From NCBI RefSeq assembly GCF_022539505.1, contig NC_061512.1, positions 250,558,510 through 250,622,509 of the forward strand: a stretch of 64,000 bases of DNA, given 5' to 3'. The notes below the pieces were generated by a model that was not told where the DNA came from, did no database searches, and worked only from the letters and a program-made list of their open reading frames with translations. The stretch is from Lolium rigidum. Taxonomy: Eukaryota; Streptophyta; Magnoliopsida; Poales; Poaceae. The first letter of the stretch is position 1. Each line of letters begins with the position of its first letter. Both the position numbers and the translations under genes were made by a program. Shown in pieces: positions 1,560-52,451 of this stretch.

Positions 1560-1622
1560 ATGGACGCCGCCTCCGCGTCCACGTCCGGCCAGGACCAGCA
1601 GCAATCGCGCCACAGGACGGTG
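1560..1622 (+). pseudogene. Original 5' coding end of CBF-1, cut off by transposon insertion
   Basis: Twenty-one codons starting MDAASASTSGQDQQQ and ending RTV, in good ATG context (gagATGG). This matches the N-terminal style of grass CBFIII proteins, in which a Gln-rich leader and RTV lead into [10 protein letters not shown]. After codon 21 (AGGACGGTG, 1614-1622) the frame runs into the transposon at 1623-2182 and stops at TGA about 1650. The same nine bases recur at 2183-2191, where the CBF frame resumes in the same phase (R-T-V then TSEPPKRP). The segment is therefore the severed start of the gene whose body is at 2183-2794. A transcript from the old promoter would give only a roughly 30-residue peptide unless the insert is spliced out. 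Confidence 0.85.
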
Positions 1623-2182
1623 GAGTCCTGCTTCGGTGCTCCCCCCACTTGAAACTTCTTAAGGGTATTTTGATCTAAGGTACTTATTTAGTACGGTAGA
1701 ATCCGGTCAAACCTTAACTGTTTTCTTAATCTGCTGCTAGATATATCGTTCTTGCGGCCGGCCGCACGCACGTGTACATGTTGCCGGCCGAGCAGCTCCG
1801 GTACGTGTATCTAGACTTTATGACATCAACCAAGCTGGCCGCCGGGCGTGCTGATCAGTTCATGGCGTCGGCTGTGCTCTCTCCGCCGATGGCCACATGC
1901 ACGCGTACGTGGACATCACGTCGCCGGCCGACCTGCTCGCCGTAGGCACTCGTACACATGAATTTCAGAGCCGTGGCTGACAAGGACGGCATACGGATAA
2001 AATAGTACAAGCGCCCGTATATTTATGAATTTGGGCAATACGGATTTTAGTGCTTAACACAAAATTAACACTACGCAAAAAAACACAAAATTAACTAATG
2101 ACAATCATATCCTTTATTATGAAGGGGTATAGAGTAATCTCGACCCTTGATGTGTTTAGGGGGGAGCACTGAAGCAGAAGCG
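1623..2182. mobile_element. 560 bp TIR transposon (MULE-like) in CBF-1 coding region, 9 bp TSD
   Basis: Flanked by perfect 9 bp direct repeats AGGACGGTG (1614-1622 and 2183-2191). The ends are inverted: the left end from 1623 and the right end read from 2182 share CTGCTTCRGTGCTCCCCCC with one mismatch. A 9 bp target duplication is typical of Mutator-like elements; the TIR is short (about 24 bp), as in non-TIR MULEs. The arms are AT-rich, but 1755-1950 is GC-rich with an open frame containing LPAEQLRYVYLDF, which looks like a captured gene fragment (Pack-MULE style); its source is not recognised. No transposase is encoded, so it is non-autonomous. Confidence 0.8.
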
Positions 2183-2794
2183 AGGACGGTGACCTCGGAG
2201 CCGCCGAAGCGCCCCGCGGGGCGGACCAAGTTCCGCGAGACGCGCCACCCGGTGTACCGCGGCGTGCGCCGCCGCGGCCGCGTCGGGCAGTGGGTGTGCG
2301 AGATGCGCGTGCAGGGCGCCCGGGGCTCCAGGCTCTGGCTCGGCACCTTCGCCACCGCCGAGATGGCGGCGCGCGCGCACGACGCCGCCGCGCTCGCGCT
2401 CTCGGGCCCCGACGCCTGCCTCAACTTCGCAGACTCCGCCTGGCGGATGCTGCCGGTCCTCGCCGCCGGCTCCTTCGGCTTCGGCAGCGCGCGGGAGATC
2501 AAAGCCGCCGTCGCGCTCGCCGTCGTCGCGTTCACGGTGCGGGCTGCCCCGGTCGCGTCCGCAGCCGTCCTGGCTGCAGCCGAGAAGGTCGTCCTCGGCT
2601 CGCCGACGCCGGCCGCCGCCCTGTTCTACATGTCGTCCGGCGACCTGCTGGAGCTCGACGACGAGCAGTGGTTCGGGGGCATGGTCGCGGGCCCGTACTA
2701 CGAGAGCCTCGCGCAGGGCATGCTCGTGGAGCCGCCGGACGCCGGAGCGTGGCGTGAGGACGGCGGGGTTGTGGAGACGCCGCTGTGGAGCTAG
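2150..2794 (+). CDS. CBF: CBF/DREB1 AP2 factor (CBFIII-like), 5' end displaced
   Basis: CBF/DREB1 proteins are nuclear activators that bind CRT/DRE (RCCGAC) sites and drive cold and drought acclimation. This frame has the N-terminal signature [16 protein letters not shown], a complete AP2 domain (about residues 33-91: [42 protein letters not shown]), the second CBF signature DSAWR, then [19 protein letters not shown] typical of CBFIII members, and an intact acidic C-terminus ending TPLWS. The first ATG in frame (2150) and its next 11 codons lie inside the 3' TIR of the inserted transposon, so the present N-terminus ([11 protein letters not shown]) is transposon-derived. The original start was 1560. 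Whether the residual 214-residue protein is made depends on a new promoter inside the insert. The AP2 domain and C-terminus show no damage. DREB1-type Val14 is present; Val replaces the Glu19 of dicot CBFs, as usual in monocots. Confidence 0.85.
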
Positions 2795-3292: not shown

Positions 3293-4697
3293 GGGAAACG
3301 CTCTGATTCCCCCGGACGATCCACGCGATCGCATCCTCCTGCTTCCTAGGGTGACACGCGTCCCACGAGCCCCACACACGAGATGAAGGAATCGCATCCT
3401 CATCCTTATCTGTTCCTCCCTGCTCTCTCTCTTCTGTCTCCCGTCCCTCTCACCGCGCCATGGCCATGGCCTTTTCCCCAAATCCTCGGTACTGCCGCGC
3501 ACCAACAAAATTCGCCGGATACCCGCTCCGCCGCGGCGTTCGCCTGATCTACTCGCCTGCGTCTCTCCGCCGAGTCCCTACAACACTAGGGCCGGCCTTT
3601 CCATCTCCGCCACCAGTGCTCCATGCCTGGCCTCACCACCACCCTGCGAGTGGCTCGCGCCGGCCGTCGCCGCCACGGATCTCCGGCCTGAAAGTTGCTC
3701 GCCCGCTTCTACAGACGGTCGTCCGCGCTGCTACAAATAGCCGGCCGCCCTGCTACAGAAGGCCGCCGGCGCTGCTACAGACAGACCGGCGGCGCTGCTA
3801 CAGAAGGCCGGCGGCGCTGCTACAAACAGCCGTCGAACCTGCTACAGAAGGCCGGCGGCGCTGCTACAAACAGCCGTCGAACCTGCTACAACCGGCGGTC
3901 CGCGCTGCTACAAACAGACCGGCGGCGCTGGTACAAACAACCGTCAAACATGCTACAACCGGCGGTCCACGCTGCTACCGAAGTTCGGCGACCCTGCTAC
4001 AAACAACCGTCCAACCTGCTACAAATGACGGTCCATGCTGCTACAAACAGCCGTCCTCTACGAGCCCCGGCCGCCGCTTCTGCAAGGTCAGCCGCCGATT
4101 GCTTTGCAGCAAACGGCGTTTGCCACTGCTACAAGCGCCGTCCGCTTCTACTGCAAGGTCGAGCGCAAGGCACTGTTGCTCCAAACGGCAGCCGCCGGTG
4201 CTACAAACGCTGGCCGCCGGTGCTACAAACGCCGACTAATTATGCTTCAAGGGGGCTTGGATGAGCATGGCTGCCAGCGGTGATGGCAGAAGCCGGAAGG
4301 TGCGGGCGGTGATGGCGCCAGGGCGGTGCTGCGGGCAGGCGACGGTGGGCTACGAACGCGGGGCGATGGGGCTGGCGTGAGGAGCATCATCGGCGATGGC
4401 AAGCCGCGGCGCTGCTTCGACACACTGGAGAGGTGCTGTGCAAAGTGGAGCAGCGCCGGTGGTAGTTTTCCCCCGCGCGAGTCGTTTGCTGCGAGCGGCC
4501 ATGGATGCCGCCCTCGCCGGAGTTGGACACCGGTCAGGGGCAAGCGTCATGGCGAAAGGGGGCGCGTGTGAGCATCGATTTCGTGGGAATTTTTTAATTC
4601 TAGATGGAGATGCCTAGACGTGGGCCAAGTCAACTAGCAATCTGAGACGTACCTACAACACGATCCAACGGTTGGGCACCCGGGGGATCGGGGATTT
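3293..4697 (+). repeat. GC-rich TGCTACA-phased repeat module I
   Basis: From about 3700 to 4230 the heptamer TGCTACA (usually TGCTACAA or TGCTACAG) recurs about every 15-30 bp, separated by GC-rich spacers. A roughly 46 bp unit is exactly duplicated between about 3795 and 3886. Long frames read through it (3460-4239 and 3695-4264) and give low-complexity peptides of CYKQPSNLLQ type, the expected by-product of a repeat without stops rather than a gene. The left edge has GATTCCCCCGG (about 3306) and ACACGCGTCC (about 3353), and similar blocks recur inverted at 6170-6235. This suggests termini of one transposon family, class not established. Confidence 0.55.
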
Positions 4698-4719
4698 GAT
4701 CCCCCGGGGGACGCTCAGC
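4678..4719. repeat. 42 bp palindromic boundary, copy 1
   Basis: Identical over 42 bp to 5801-5842. The core is an inverted repeat, CCCGGGGGATC then nine bases then GATCCCCCGGG, followed by ACGCTCAGC. It reads as the end of one module abutting the start of the next. Confidence 0.7.
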
Positions 4720-5811
4720 ATTGCCCAAAGGAAAACGCTGACGTTCCTCCGGAGGAACAGCGTTTTGATCCCCCGCCTCGTACACACGCCACGCGTCCCT
4801 GCAGATCAGAAGAAAACGGGCAGCACATGGCGGGGCCCACCCCATCTTCCACCACGACCTTATCCTTTCGTGCAGATTTTCCCCCAATCTTCTCTCCCAC
4901 GAGCTTGGGTCCATGGCTGGAGATGGAGCACCGCGTGCCCCACGCTGCCTTGCCCCCACGCTGCTGCACCACCACCTCCCCTACCCCGCCATGGGTACCA
5001 TCCCTCCTCCCTGCTCCGCGCCACCCCGCCATGAGACTCCGCCCCGCCATAGCTGGATGCGAGACCCAGGGGAGGTCGCCGGCCGGGGAGCCGATGATGC
5101 GAGCGGCGTCGGCGGCTGCTACATGCGGGGTCGCCGTATGCTACTATGGCGGCGGCTGCTGCTACATGGTCGCCGGCCTCTGCTACATGTCGCGGCGGCG
5201 GCGGCTGGGCCTGCTACAATAGACAGAGGCTGTTGCTACGATGGGCGTCGCCGACTGCTACATGCGGCGTCGGCGTGTCGCACAGCGGGCAGCGGCTGCC
5301 GCTACATAATCGCCACCCTTCCGGTACTTGCCGCGGCGGCGGCGCAGCTCGCTCAACCGGCGGAGGCTTCGCTACGACGGGCTTCACCGGCTGCTACATG
5401 GGTCGGCCGACGGCTGCGACAAGCTGCGGCGACCTGCTACAAGGGGCGATGGTCATTGCTACAAGTAGCGGCGGTGGTTGCTACAGACGGCGCGCCGCCG
5501 ATCTGCAACTAGGCCGCCGGCGAAGCTACGTGCGGCTAGTGGCGATGCTACAATCCCGGGACGGCGGTGCTGCATGCTTGGGGCCGTCGTGCTACCGGGT
5601 GCTGCCATCAGGGGCCGGAGTTGGTGCCGAGTCGGGCGGCGGCACTGCAAGCCGGACGCCACATCGCCGGAGGTGCTGCAAGCTCGGGCGCGCGAAGGTC
5701 GGGAAAAAGGAAATTTCCATAGGTGGTTTTTCTTCTCTGTTTTTCCATGCGGGAGCGTTGACTCCAGATCCGAGCCATTAGTTGCATCGGGCGGCTGGCA
5801 ACCCGGGGGAT
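4698..5811 (+). repeat. GC-rich TGCTACA-phased repeat module II
   Basis: Same architecture as the preceding module: starts with GATCCCCCGG, contains ACGCGTCC near its left side, a run of GCTACA-type heptamers (about 5115-5600, often CTGCTACATG), and ends just before the next 42 bp boundary. Open frames across it are repeat-derived. No transposase motif is visible in either strand. Confidence 0.5.
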
Positions 5812-5842
5812 CGGGGATTTGATCCCCCGGGGGACGCTCAGC
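5801..5842. repeat. 42 bp palindromic boundary, copy 2
   Basis: Identical 42 bp copy of 4678-4719. It joins module II to a shorter third module. Confidence 0.7.
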
Positions 5843-6650: not shown

Positions 6651-7329
6651 CTAAGAAAAAATAGCAAAAAATACATAGAAAGAATGGAGGATACATTGGG
6701 TGGTCTGAGAGGTGCAGAGGAAGCGTGGAGGTCTTCCGGCAGCTCATAAGCGAGGCTCTTGTTGACACACTCACTCGGCTCGCCACTATTGTTGTCCTAG
6801 ACGCAGCCCTCCTCCTTGTCACTATTGCTGATGAGTGGTAAAAACACTCATCTTTATCCCGTTTAAACCGGGTATCTTTCTTCATTATGATGAAAATATC
6901 TCTCTATACCTTGCCACTAATCACATCATTGAAAAAATGTGCAAATCTCCTTGTTATTTTATTTTATGCAGAAAATGGACACTTTGAGGATTAAATGAAA
7001 GGTAATTAATTAATGAAGCACGACGTGGGAATATCGCCAAGTGAACCAGTCCTCGAAGACATTCAACAGTTACCTTACCGACCAATGGTACCGTCATCCC
7101 CGCCCGTACGAATGATCGTACGGTGTGTCGGTGGTACTGCTTTGTCAAACCAAGTATTTCTTGTGAGATCAACGAGGGCGTCTGAGAGAGAGAACTCCAC
7201 GAAACCTCATTTTGTAGGCACAATCAGATCTCGTCTTCACCAAAGTTCTATCGTCGCCACCATCAACTCCTGCCGCCTCATCCATCATCATCTAGCTGAC
7301 TCTACTTACAACAAACTGTAGGCATCAAG
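6651..7329. other. Intergenic DNA, no gene seen
   Basis: AT-rich with short frames only; no recognisable motif on either strand. Confidence 0.4.
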
Positions 7330-8678: not shown

Positions 8679-9335
8679 TCAGTAGTGGCTCCAGAGCGCG
8701 GCGCAATCAGCTCCGCCGTCCCAGCAAGCCTCGGTGGATTCGTGCGGCGGCGGCGGGTCAAGTAGCATCCCCTCCGCGAAGTCCGCGTAGTACGAGCCCA
8801 GGTCCATCTCCCCGGACATGTCCAGCTCGAAGTCGTACATGTCGCTGCCCAGCACAGCCGTCGCCGGCAGCTCGAACAGTTCATCCAGCGCGCTGGAGGT
8901 GTCGACCTCGTCGGCTGGGCCTGGGATGGTCTCGGCGCAATAGGCGGCCTCCCGGCGCTGGAAGTCCGCGACGGCGGCGAGCGCTGCGCGCCGGACGGCC
9001 GCGAGATCGGCGAGTCCGGACGGGACGGCGAGAAGCCGGGCGGAGTCGGCGAAGTTGAGGCACAGTTCGGAGCCTCCTCCCAGCGCGAGCATGGCGGCGT
9101 CGTGCCCGCGCGCGGCAGCCTCGGCGGTGACGTAGGTCCCGAGCCAGAGCCGCTCGCCGCGCTTGCCGGGGACGCGCACCTCGCACACCCACCGCCCGGC
9201 GCTGCCCCTGCGCCGCACGCCGCGGTACACCGGGTGCCGCGTCTCCTTGAACTTGGTGCGCCCCGCCGGGCGCTTCTGGTGCGAAGACGGCGAGGAAGGG
9301 GAGCTCCATTGCTCGGCGCCGCCCATGCCGTCCAT
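8679..9335 (-). CDS. CBF: CBF/DREB1 AP2 factor (CBFIV-like), CBF-2
   Basis: Single-exon gene of 218 residues. It has [15 protein letters not shown], a full AP2 domain (about residues 37-95: [51 protein letters not shown]), the leucine-rich stretch [24 protein letters not shown], and the acidic C-terminal activation region [20 protein letters not shown] ending ALWSHY. It should be a nuclear activator of cold-responsive genes. The DSAW(R/L) signature reads DSARL: the invariant Trp is Arg (CGG, one base from TGG). The usual RAHDAAM reads RGHDAAM. The frame is otherwise intact. The start at 9335 lies 93 bp below a TATA box. Sequence from the 3' UTR (about 8611) to the upstream promoter (about 9610) is shared with the gene at 51.5 kb, so the two are duplicates. 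Confidence 0.93.
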
Positions 9336-40416: not shown

Positions 40417-42111
40417 TGATACGTCTCAAACGTATCTATAATTTCTGATGTTCCATGCTTGTTTGATGACAATACCTACATGTTTTGTTCACACTTTATA
40501 TCGTTTTGATGCGTTTTCCAGAACTAACCTATTGACGAGATGCCGAAGTGCCAATTCCTGTTCTCTGCTGTTTTTGGTTTCAGAAATCCTAGTAAGGAAA
40601 TATTCTCGGAATCGGACGAAATCAACGCCCAGTACCCTATTTTCACCGGAAGCCTCCAGAACACCCGAGAGGGACCGGAGGGGGCCACAGGGGCCCCACA
40701 CACTAAGGCGGCGCGGCACAGGGGGGCACGCCGGCCTGGTGTCTGGCCCCACCAGGGCCCCTCCGAGGCTCCCCTTTCGCCTATATAAGCTCCCTGACCT
40801 AAAACCCCGAGACGAATAAGCCACGGTACGAGAAAAGTTCCAGAGCCGCCGCCATCGCGAAGCCAAGATCTGGGGGACAGGAGTCTCGTTCCGGCACGCC
40901 GCCGGGACGGGGAAGTGCCCCCGGAAGGCTCCTCCATCGACACCACCGCCATCTTCATCACCGCTGATGTCTCCCATGAGGAGGGAGTAGTTCTCCATCG
41001 AGGCTCGGGGCTGTACCGGTAGCTATGTGGTTCATCTCTCTCCTATGTACTTCAATACAATAATCTCATGAGCTGCTTTACATGATTGAGATTCATATGA
41101 TGATGCTTGTAATCTAGATGTCATTATGCTAGTCAAGTGGGTTTTACTTATGTGATCTCCGGAGACTCCTTGTCCCACGTGTGTAAAGGTGACAAGTGTG
41201 TGCACCGTGTGGGTCTCTTAGGCTATATTTCATAGAATACTTATTCACCGTTATGAATGGCATAGTGAAGTGCTTATTTATATCCCTTTATGATTGCAAT
41301 GTGCTTTGTATCGCTACTAGTTATGTGCTACTCATGTGATGTTATTAAAGTAGTCTATTCCTCCTGCATGGTGTAATGGTGACAGTGTGTGCATCGTGTG
41401 GTTCTTGTCGTAGATTATGATCATAATATCTTGTAGGTTATGGAGTTGATTATCGCTATGATAGTATTGATGTGATTTATTCCCCCTTTCATAGTGTAAT
41501 GGTGACAGTGTGTATGCTATGTTAGTACTCGGTCTATTTTGCAAAGATCTATTATGCTCTAAGGTTACTTAAACATGAATATCGAATGTTGTGGAGCTTG
41601 TTAACTCCGGCATTGAGGGTTCGTGTAATCCTACACAATTAGTGGTGTTCATTATCAAACAAGAGTATATGTAGCACAAATGAGAGAAGTTATTATTTAT
41701 TATGCGATCAATGTTGAGAGTGTCCACTAGTGAAAGTATGATCCCTAGGCCTTGTTTCCAATACGCAAACAACGTTGATTTACCGTTCTATCTGCATGTT
41801 TACTTGCTGCCATATTTTATTCAGATTGCTATTACCACTCATATCCATCCATACTACTTGTATTTCACTATCTCTTCGCCGAACTAGTGCACCTATACAT
41901 CTGACAAGTGTATTAGGTTTGTTGGGGACACAAGAGACTTCTTGCTTTGTGGTTGCAGGGTTGCTTGAGAGGGATATCTTTGACCTCTTCCTCCCTGAGT
42001 TCGATAAACCTTGGGTGATCCACTTAAGGGAAAACTTGCTGCTGTTCTACAAACCTCTGGCTCTTGGAGGCCCAACACTGTCTACAAGAATAGAAGCACC
42101 CGTAGACTTCA
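40417..42111 (+). repeat. TE5 5' LTR
   Basis: TGATACGTCTC ... GTAGACTTCA. Contains a TATA box near 40783 (GCCTATATAAGC) and two imperfect internal repeats around ATAGTGTAATGGTGACAGTG and ATGGTGTAATGGTGACAGTG (about 41360 and 41490). Confidence 0.92.
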
Positions 42112-42273: not shown

Positions 42274-43011
42274 ATGGAAAGTAACAATGAGCTTCTTATT
42301 CTATTTCCTGAGTTAAGACATGGATTGTTTGTTGCGAAAATTAAAAAACCTATGGAATCTTATTTGCATGCTAGTAGCAATGATATTAGTATGAACGCTT
42401 TGAACACCATTGTTGTTAATGATATGGAAAATTCTAAGCTTGGGGAAGCTGGTTTTGATGAGCATGATATTTTTAGTCCCCCAAGCATTGAGGAGAAAAT
42501 TTTCTTTGATGATACTTTGCCTCCTATTTATGATGATTATAATGATAGTGGTCTTTTGGTGCCGCCTACTATGGAGAGTAAATTTTATTATGATTATACT
42601 ATGCCTCCTACACTTGATGAGAATAATAATGATAGCTACTTTATTGAATTTGCTCCCACTACAACTAATAAAATTGATTATGCTTATGTGGAGAGTAATA
42701 ATTTTATGCATGAGACTCATGATAAGAATGCTTTATGTGATAGTTATATTGTTGAGTTTGCTCATGATGCTACTGAAAGTTATTATGAGAGAGGAAAATA
42801 TGGTTGTAGAAATTTTCATGTTACTAAAACACCTCTCTATGTGCTGAAATTTTTGAAGCTACACTTGTTTTGTCTTCCTATGCTTGCCACTATACTCTTC
42901 ATGAACTTGTTTATTTACAAGATTCCTATGCATAGGAAGCATGTTAGACTTAAATGTGTTTTGAATTTGCCTCTTGATGCTCTCTTTTTCTTCAAATACA
43001 ATTTCTTGTGA
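42274..43011 (+). CDS. TE5 internal ORF, unknown function
   Basis: 245 codons beginning MESNNELLILFPELRHG. The N-terminal two thirds are acidic and Asn/Asp/Tyr-rich (NDISMNALNTIVVNDME, GFDEHDIFSPPSIEEKIFF, PPIYDDYNDSGLLVPP). The C-terminus has a hydrophobic span (LPMLATILFMNLFIY) followed by a basic stretch (KIPMHRKHVRLK), so it could be membrane-associated. No gag, zinc-knuckle, protease or RT motif is seen. An older copy in TE1 (47987-47472, minus strand) is recognisable, which suggests past constraint or a recent common source. Confidence 0.65.
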   Translation: MESNNELLILFPELRHGLFVAKIKKPMESYLHASSNDISMNALNTIVVNDMENSKLGEAGFDEHDIFSPPSIEEKIFFDDTLPPIYDDYNDSGLLVPPTMESKFYYDYTMPPTLDENNNDSYFIEFAPTTTNKIDYAYVESNNFMHETHDKNALCDSYIVEFAHDATESYYERGKYGCRNFHVTKTPLYVLKFLKLHLFCLPMLATILFMNLFIYKIPMHRKHVRLKCVLNLPLDALFFFKYNFL

Positions 43012-45488: not shown

Positions 45489-47183
45489 TGATACGTCTCA
45501 AACGTATCTATAATTTCTGATGTTCCATGCTTGTTTTATGACAATACCTACATGTTTTGTTCACACTTTATATCGTTTTGATGCGTTTTCCGGAACTAAC
45601 CTATTGACGAGATGCCGAAGTGCCAGTTCTCGTTTTCTCGCTGTTTTTGGTTTCGAAATCCTAGTAAGGAAATATTCTCGGAATCGGACGAAATCAACGC
45701 CCAGTACCCTATTTTCACCGGAAGCCTCCAGAACACCCGAGAGGGACCAGAGGGGGGCCACAGGGGTCCCACACACTAAGGCGGCGCGGCCTGAGGGGGG
45801 GCGCGCCGGCCTAGTGTCTGGCCCCACCAGGGCCCCTCCGAGGCTCCCCTTTCGCCTATATAAGCTCCCTGACCTAAAACCCCGAGACGAATAAGCCACG
45901 GTACGAGAAAAGTTCCAGAGCCGCCGCCATCGTGAAGCCAAGATCCGGGGACAGGAGTCTCTGTTCCGGCACGCCGCCGGACGGGGAAGTGCCCCCGAAG
46001 GCTCCTCCATCGACACCACCGCCATCTTCATCACCGCTGCTGTCTCCCATGAGGAGGGAGTAGTTCTCCATCGAGGCTCGGGGCTGTACCTGGTAGCTAT
46101 GTGGTTCATCTCTCTCCTATGTACTTCAATACAATAATCTCATGAGCTGCTTTACATGATTGAGATTCATATGATGATGCTTGTAATCTAGATGTCATTA
46201 TGCTAGTCAAGTGGGTTTTACTTATGTGATCTCCGGAGACTCCTTGTCCCACGTGTGTAAAGGTGACAGGTGTGTGCACCGTGTGGGTCTCTTAGGCTAT
46301 ATTTCACGGAATACTTATTCACTGTTATGAATGGCATAGTGAAGTGCTTATTTATATCCCTTTATGATTGCAATGTGCTTTGTATCGCTACTAGTTATGT
46401 GCTACTCATGTGATGTTATTAAAGTAGTCTATTCCTCCTGCATGGTGTAATGGTGACAGTGTGTGCATAGTGTGGTTCTTGTCGTAGATTATGATCATAA
46501 TCTCTTGTAGGTTATGGAGTTGATTATCGCTATGATAGTATTGATGTGATTTATTCCCCCTTTCATAGTGTAATGGTGACAGTGTGTATGCTATGTTAGT
46601 ACTCGGTCTATTTTGCAAAGATCTATTATGCTCTAAGGTTACTTAAACATGAATATCGAATGTTGTGGAGCTTGTTAACTCCGGCATTGAGGGTTCGTGT
46701 AATCCTACACAATTAGTGGTGTTCATTATCAAACAAGAGTATATGTAGCACAAATGAGAGAAGTTATTATTTATTATGCGATCAATGTTGAGAGTGTCCA
46801 CTAGTGAAAGTATGATCCCTAGGCCTTGTTTCCAATACTGCAAACAACGTTGATTTACTGTTCTACTGCATGTTTACTTGCTGCCATATTTTATTCAGAT
46901 TGCTATTACCACTCATATCCATCCATACTACTTGTATTTCACTATCTCTTCGCCGAACTAGTGCACCTATACATCTGACAAGTGTATTAGGTGTGTTGGG
47001 GACACAAGAGACTTCTTGCTTTGTGGTTGCAGGTTGCTTGAGAGGGATATCTTTGACCTCTTCCTCCCTGAGTTCGATAAACCTTGGGTGATCCACTTAA
47101 GGGAAAACTTGCTGTTGTTCTACAAACCTCTCGCTCTTGGAGGCCCAACACTGTCTACAAGAATAGAAGCACCCGTAGACATC
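45489..47183 (+). repeat. TE5 3' LTR
   Basis: Copy of 40417-42111 with few differences. It ends ...GTAGACATC then G at 47184. Confidence 0.92.
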
Positions 47184-48151
47184 GATTATCTCCCAAGAAG
47201 TTCTTTCTTTATAGCCATTAAGATGGGCTCAGTAATTTCAATGACACTCTCGCAAGAAATAAGATTTGAAGCAAAAGAGAACATCAAGAAGCAAATTCAA
47301 AACACATTTAAGCCTAACCCACTTCCTATGAAAAGGAATCTTGTACACAAATAAATTCATGAAGAACAAAGTGGCAAGCATAGAAAAGCAACACAAGCGC
47401 AATTTCAAGATTCTCAACATAAAGAGGGGAAACTTAATATTATTAAGATGCATATAACCATGTTTCCCTCTCTAATAATAACTTTCAGTAGCATCATGAA
47501 CAAACTCAACAATATAACTACCACATAAAGCATTCTTGTCATGAGCCACATGCATAAAATTATTACTCTCCACATAAGCATAATCAATTTTATTATTTGT
47601 AGTGGGAGCAAATTCAACAAAGTAGCTATCATTATCATTCTCATCAAGTGTAGGAGGCATAGTATAATCATAATAAAATTTACTCTCCATAGTAGGCGGC
47701 ACCAAAAGACCACTATCATTATAATCATCATAAATAGGAGGCAAAGTATCATCAAAGAAAATTTTCTCCTCAATGCTTGGGGGACTAAAAATGTCATGCT
47801 CATCAAAACCAGCTTCCCCAAGCTTAGAATTTTCCATATCATTAGCAACAATGGTGTTCAAAGCGTTCATACTAATATCATTGCGACTAGCATGCAAATA
47901 AGATTCCATAGGTTTTTTAATTTTCGCAGCAAACAATCCATGTCTTAACTCAGAAAATAGAATAAGAAGCTCACTGTTGCTTTCCATTATGCCTAACTAG
48001 TGTAAACAAGAAACCAAAAGATGCAATTGCAGGATCTAAAGGAAATAGCTTCGAGCACTTACAACGGCAACAGAAAATAACTTAGTTACCTGGGACCGGA
48101 GTATGAGGGCCTTTTACCTTTCCTCCCCGACAACGGCGCCAGAAAATAGCT
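47184..48151 (-). other. TE1 interior, 5' part with old copy of the internal ORF
   Basis: Reverse-orientation relative of 42112-43075. The ORF copy at 47987-47472 (171 codons, MESNSELLILFSELRHG...) retains most of the family sequence, then goes out of frame near codon 171. PBS at 48121-48141. Confidence 0.8.
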
Positions 48152-51527: not shown

Positions 51528-52319
51528 TCAGGTGTAGCTCCAGAGCGCGGCGTAATCAGCTCCGCTGTCCTCCCAGCACACCTCGGTGAATTCTGCCGCC
51601 GGCGGCGGCTCTAGGAGCATCCCCTCCGCGAGGTCTGCGTAGTACGATCCGAGGTCCATCTCCCCGGACATGCCGAGCTCAAAGTCGAACATGTCATTTC
51701 CCATGCCAAGTGCTGCAGCTGCCGGCACCTCGAATAATCCATCCAGCTCAGAAGACAGGGACGTGGCCGACGAGCCGGCGTCGTCCGCGGACGAGGATTC
51801 CGACGCGCTGGAGGCGTCGGCCTCGTAAATGGGGACGGTCGCGACGCAATCGGCGGCCTCCCGGCGCTGGAGGTCCGCGACGGCGGCGAGCGCCGCGCGC
51901 CGGACGTCGGCGAGGTCGGCGAGCGCCGCGCGCCGGACGTCGGCGAGGTCGGCGAGCGCGGACGGGACGGCGAGCAGCCACGCGGAGTCCGCGAAGTTGA
52001 GGCGCGCGGCGGAGGCGGAGGCGGAGACAGGGCGGCCGCCGAGCAGCGCGAGCATGCCGGCGTCGTGCGCGCGCGCGGCGGCCTCGGCCGTGGCGTGCGT
52101 GCCGAGCCAGAGCCGCTCGCCGCGCTTGCCGCCGGGGACGCGCACCTCGCAGACCCACCGGCCGGCGCTGCCGCGGCGCCGCACGCCGCGGTACACCGGG
52201 TGCCGCGTCTCCTTGAACTTGGTGCGCCCCGCGGGACGCTTGGGCGGCGGCTGCACCCTCAGCGCCGGCGAGTGCTCCTGCGACGACGTTGAAGAGGAAG
52301 ATGAGCCGCTCATGTCCAT
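51528..52319 (-). CDS. CBF: CBF/DREB1 AP2 factor (CBFIV-like), CBF-3
   Basis: Intact single-exon gene, 263 residues, starting [17 protein letters not shown]. It has [17 protein letters not shown], the AP2 domain ([44 protein letters not shown]), the intact CBF signature [17 protein letters not shown], and the C-terminal acidic activation region ([20 protein letters not shown]) ending ALWSYT. It is a nuclear CRT/DRE-binding activator by family. An ATG further upstream at 52433 lies only 22 bp from the TATA box, i.e. around or before the likely transcription start, so 52319 is taken as the start. Oddities are an exact 33 bp in-frame tandem duplication ([11 protein letters not shown] repeated), a Gly insertion in the AP2 loop (PGGKRGERL), a short insertion before LNF (RPVSASASA), and DAG for the usual DAA. 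Confidence 0.95.
51886..51951 (-). repeat. Exact 33 bp tandem duplication in CBF-3 coding sequence
   Basis: 51886-51918 and 51919-51951 are identical. In protein terms [11 protein letters not shown] occurs twice in the leucine-rich helix after the DSAWL signature; CBF-2 has a single copy. Confidence 0.97.
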
Positions 52320-52451
52320 CGCTGGCTGCCGATCGAACACTAGCTGGGTATGGTTGGGATGTGGAGTGTGACTGAGGGTCTGAGGTTGCCGGCGATGTTG
52401 ATGAGGTCGAGCTCGGAGTGCTGGGTAACTCATTGCTGTGAGAGGTGTGCG

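Follow-up and report, generated by a model that had tools for sequence, protein, structure and literature searches.

A 64 kb stretch of Lolium rigidum DNA was analysed, referred to here as the window, in which a CBF gene starts at the native ATG 1560 and has its coding sequence cut after codon 21 by an insert of 560 bp (Table 1). The initial annotation had described a CBF gene split at 1622, with 9 bp repeated at 2183 and the reading frame resuming in phase, and this description is borne out by the exact 9 bp duplication and the in-frame join of the two flanks. The native ATG lies in the context GAGATGG, which is strong by the consensus, and its frame runs into a stop at 1650-1652, inside the insert. 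The insert and one copy of the duplicated target (TSD) together make 569 bp, which is 2 mod 3, so that a straight read-through puts the CBF body out of phase. The downstream body carries an AP2 domain (Pfam PF00847, E 3.8e-14), and the translation of 2192-2794 contains both PKRPAGRxKFxETRHP and DSAWR, the CBF signatures flanking AP2.

Table 1. Features of the interrupted CBF gene and of its insert (positions in the window)
Feature	Position	Strand	Remarks
5' CBF coding piece, codons 1-21	1560..1622	+	MDAASASTSGQDQQQSRHRTV
Frame from native ATG in the disrupted gene	1560..1652	+	30 codons, then TGA within the insert
TSD, left copy	1614..1622	+	AGGACGGTG; exact 9 bp
Insert, TIR element	1623..2182		560 bp; no known coding content in the readings tested
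Left TIR core	1628..1646	+	CTGCTTCGGTGCTCCCCCC; 18/19 paired with the right core
TATA-like string, putative	2018..2025	+	TATATTTA; reached in 24% of shuffles
Element-derived ATG with 10 more codons	2150..2182	+	in frame with the CBF body
Right TIR core	2159..2177	-	CTGCTTCAGTGCTCCCCCC
TSD, right copy	2183..2191	+	AGGACGGTG; exact 9 bp
Remaining CBF coding sequence	2192..2794	+	AP2 domain and C-terminus intact; stop 2792-2794

The earlier statement that the insert has matching inverted ends (TIRs) with one mismatch is correct for the 19 bp core and does not extend to 24 bp, over which 19 of 24 positions match, the outer 5 bp of each side (GAGTC and, as reverse complement, CGCTT) agreeing at 1 position. 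Further inward there is no significant pairing. With up to 3 mismatches allowed, the TIR pattern occurs in the window at these two places only, where 0.01 would be expected, and an exact shared 9-mer at a comparable spacing, with slack, was found at 2 of 8286 positions sampled. Chance is excluded as an explanation for this arrangement of insert, TSD and TIRs. The insert has a GC content of 49% with a GC-rich middle. Three readings of it gave no transposase and no other Pfam family above the cut-off, one of them showing two matches far below the cut-off (RepB_primase, E 0.077, and DUF1118, E 0.099), and for one composite reading no protein relatives were found at E≤0.001 among 81 candidates. 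A second copy of the element was not found within the window, and the TIR pattern gave 0 matches in the viral_contigs collection and one in genome_contigs, in a bacterial MAG (L001), which is taken as a chance match. An origin as a Pack-MULE with a captured host gene was rejected, as the GC-rich middle (about 1743-1942) has neither a Pfam family above the cut-off nor a protein relative in the readings tried, and an LTR or TRIM origin was rejected on the inverted orientation of the ends and the 9 bp length of the flanking duplication.

Joining 1560-1622 to 2192-2794 restores an in-frame product of 221 aa (222 codons with the stop). The junction was compared with 21 relatives, chosen from 120 listed among 3507 found, as proteins only and not as orthologue DNA. 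Nineteen of the 21 reach the junction, and in 18 of these the stretch TV-x-SE(P/R)PKRP is unbroken; the sole exception is P0010 from Festuca arundinacea, which has an unrelated N-terminus, while P0063 and P0072 begin downstream of the junction. At the protein level the relatives thus join 1622 to 2192 in frame, and the observation withstands the first of the refuting conditions set in the initial annotation.

In a tree of 27 rows the disrupted gene is nearest to P0002 and lies beside CBF IVd rows. The 15-row clade with CBFIVd-4.1, CBFIVd-A22, HvCBF4 and HvCBF9 has a support of 87/81 (not starred), and the enclosing set of 17 rows, which also contains HvCBF2A and CBFIVb-D21, has 99/95. This placement gives moderate support to a predicted CBF IVd type (CBF4/CBF9-like) for the disrupted gene, and assignment to CBF IIIc does not fit the tree. 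The two further CBF genes in the window group with HvCBF15/16 at a weak fork (80/84), and one CBF of the window, at 51528-52433, contains a 33 bp tandem repeat of 2.9 copies (51864-51959) that repeats 11 residues in the protein.

The best matches among the relatives listed are two proteins of Lolium rigidum, P0001 and P0002, and both appear to be intact near-copies on the same chromosome as the disrupted gene, outside the window. The body of the disrupted gene is identical to P0002 at 196 of 197 residues, plus a 6-residue gap, and to P0001 at 195 of 203. None of its 203 body residues is private when compared with the 21 relatives, which also holds for P0002 and P0006; this shows a lack of decay and nothing further. 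In its N-terminus the disrupted gene resembles P0001 more, in its body P0002, with the switch near the insertion point, and this mismatch in affinity suggests that gene conversion or unequal exchange may have taken place, as judged at the protein level only. A further L. rigidum relative, P0072, is annotated from an internal Met with an alignment gap of about 19 residues, and is possibly a second degenerate copy.

We consider it very probable that a non-autonomous Mutator-like element recently hit one CBF IVd-type copy after codon 21, leaving a copy that is probably null. The element would have inserted into one CBF4/CBF9-like copy and duplicated its 9 bp target, and in mRNA from the native promoter translation would start at 1560 and stop at 1650-1652, with the body out of phase. 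What we infer is loss of function, recency and tolerance through redundancy: the copy would be null or nearly so because the native frame stops within the insert and the additional 569 bp shift the phase of the body, the loss would be tolerated because intact copies exist, and the body would be clean because the duplication (or gene conversion) and the insertion are both young. The initial annotation had taken the absence of decay as a sign of recent insertion or of continued selection. The lack of decay stands and fits a recent event, but selection is not needed, since a body that differs from intact P0002 at a single aligned residue is explained by a young copy. Most probably, then, the gene is a redundant copy lost to an ordinary event.

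P0001 and P0002 may be tandem copies or uncollapsed haplotype copies. It is rather unlikely, although compatible with a transposon insertion, that the disrupted gene and P0002 (or P0001) are alleles of one locus, the latter intact, retained as two copies when an outcrossing plant was assembled. L. rigidum is outcrossing in habit, the body is nearly identical to that of P0002, and the neighbouring CBF at 8679-9335 (P0121, 100%) likewise has an L. rigidum near-copy, P0122 (87% in BLASTP, 98% over 196 tree columns). The same reading draws on the use of purge_dups for a published L. rigidum assembly, not necessarily the one analysed here, as stated in an excerpt of the genome paper (PMC9664059). 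However, P0002 differs in its N-terminus as well as by the 6-residue gap, P0001 differs at 8 of 203 residues and groups with an L. multiflorum protein in the tree (84/94), and the consecutively numbered CBF proteins of L. multiflorum (006726-006729) suggest tandem copies in that species.

As to the inserted DNA itself, it is most likely a small non-autonomous Mutator-like element (MULE), a candidate assignment in which both the family and the TSD length are taken from one copy. There is good support, from the TSD, the TIRs, the size and the in-frame empty site, for an insertion of Mutator-like signature in the CBF coding region, in agreement with the earlier proposal that a 9 bp TSD points to such an element. 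The unpaired outermost bases, and TIRs that are short for a MULE, count against the assignment. For a MULE a TSD of about 9 bp is expected, and AGGACGGTG stands on both sides of the insert, with a single copy corresponding to the junction in the proteins of the relatives. An insert from another superfamily, for example a hAT element with an 8 bp TSD and one chance base, or a piece of filler DNA, would agree with the one copy seen and with the short and imperfect ends; we regard it as unlikely, as nine exact flanking bases, the in-frame empty site and the paired ends favour transposition, and the ends of the insert do not start with the hAT motif.

The initial annotation had also noted that the right TIR contains an ATG plus 11 codons in frame with the AP2 domain, and had proposed that a nearly full-length CBF with a transposon-encoded N-terminus could be made. 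The in-frame ATG is real; it sits at 2150, 9 bp inward of the right TIR core and outside the core itself, and the 11 codons before the duplicated RTV include the ATG. The frame 2150-2794 is open, which makes such a protein possible, but the proposal is unsupported, and the presence of an in-frame ATG is unremarkable. When inserts are read backwards from the gene, an in-frame ATG precedes any stop in 26% of 20000 random ones drawn from a Markov model and in 33% (1826/5455) of window segments, and an ATG offered by 26-33% of inserts is therefore no sign of selection. That transcription starts in the insert and that ATG 2150 is used, giving a working CBF of 214 aa with 11 transposon-encoded residues at its N-terminus, is very unlikely in our estimation. 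The AP2 domain in this frame is intact with the flanking CBF signatures downstream, the relatives vary in their N-terminus ahead of RTV, that of P0010 being unrelated, and upstream of the ATG there are the TATA-like TATATTTA (2018) and a CRT/DRE core (1927). The counts of TATA-like strings, CRT/DRE cores and G-box cores in the insert are, however, reached by 8-24% of shuffles, on which ground promoter motifs in the insert were rejected as a signal. Ten ATGs, counting 1560, precede 2150, and from two of them, 2098 and 2119, a frame extends beyond 2150 out of phase. The context of ATG 2150, TTGATGT, is weak by the plant consensus. The window's own open reading frame is unmarked among the 120 proteins listed of 3507, which is a weak point against the chimeric protein because, with proteins clustered at 90%, it could be concealed behind P0001 or P0002. 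The further proposal, that the insert supplies its own promoter (from the TATA-like string at 2018 and the CRT/DRE core at 1927) in addition to the start codon, so that a CBF with a new N-terminus would come perhaps under CBF-driven cold regulation, is highly improbable.

That the insert is removed by splicing, so that the CBF gains a few residues, deserves hardly any weight. Among 235 GT..AG pairs tried, 10 give back an uninterrupted frame (a count with no chance control and with acceptors unscored), including the pair 1636-2177 that uses both TIRs, but their four donors agree with AGGTAAGT at no more than 2-4 of 8 positions, the donor at 1680, with a 6/8 match, comes after the stop at 1650-1652, and CBF genes are normally intronless. 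Splicing out of the insert was rejected on its weak donors.

Other parts of the window also contain repeated sequence. Two neighbouring units, at 3704-4235 and 5105-5560, are rich in TGCTACAA-type repeats of about 22 bp and are probably repeat-bearing mobile elements; a 51 bp sequence with GGGGATTTGATCCCC follows both units (4669-4719 and 5792-5842, 94%). The very similar open reading frames 42274-43011 and 47472-47987, on opposite strands, and a further similar pair with a shared orientation (40448-40998 and 45520-46109) are duplicated repeat blocks.

A literature search in open-access PMC, judged from listings, showed among the papers listed none on transposon insertion into CBF coding sequence in Lolium, and the word CBF is absent from the main text of the L. 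rigidum genome paper (PMC9664059). The locus cleanly illustrates gene birth and death within a CBF cluster of a grass, one copy being interrupted and others, near-identical to it, intact. Should the insertion segregate among ryegrass populations, it could mark CBF copy dosage and frost tolerance, and if the body were expressed from the insert, a transposon would have furnished a stress regulator with both its promoter and its first codons.

The disrupted gene resembles the CBF IVd genes HvCBF4, HvCBF9 and wheat CBFIVd-4.1 in its AP2 domain, its placement in the tree and the presence of other CBF genes nearby, and differs from them in that the coding frame of the window copy is interrupted. Mutator-type MITEs of grasses are hundreds of bp long, have short TIRs and no coding capacity, often lie near genes and reach a high copy number. 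The ryegrass insert is like them in its length of hundreds of bp, its short TIRs and the lack of coding content in the readings tested, and unlike them in being seen in a single copy within the 64 kb. For expression of a CBF body driven by an element, the outward-reading promoter of Mu1 at maize hcf106 would be the model. According to excerpts of the respective papers, MULEs have TSDs of 7-12 bp (PMC9168764), maize Mu elements have TIRs of ~215 bp and TSDs of 9 bp (PMC2774946), and barley Hvu_Abermu has TIRs of 138-145 bp with ends GGG...CCC, with 9 bp TSDs in 267 of 278 bounded copies (PMC9168764). In contrast to maize Mu and Hvu_Abermu, the ryegrass insert has a TIR that extends over no more than ~19-24 bp and whose outer bases do not pair, and no transposase in the readings tested; what it shares with both of these MULEs is a 9 bp TSD in combination with TIRs.
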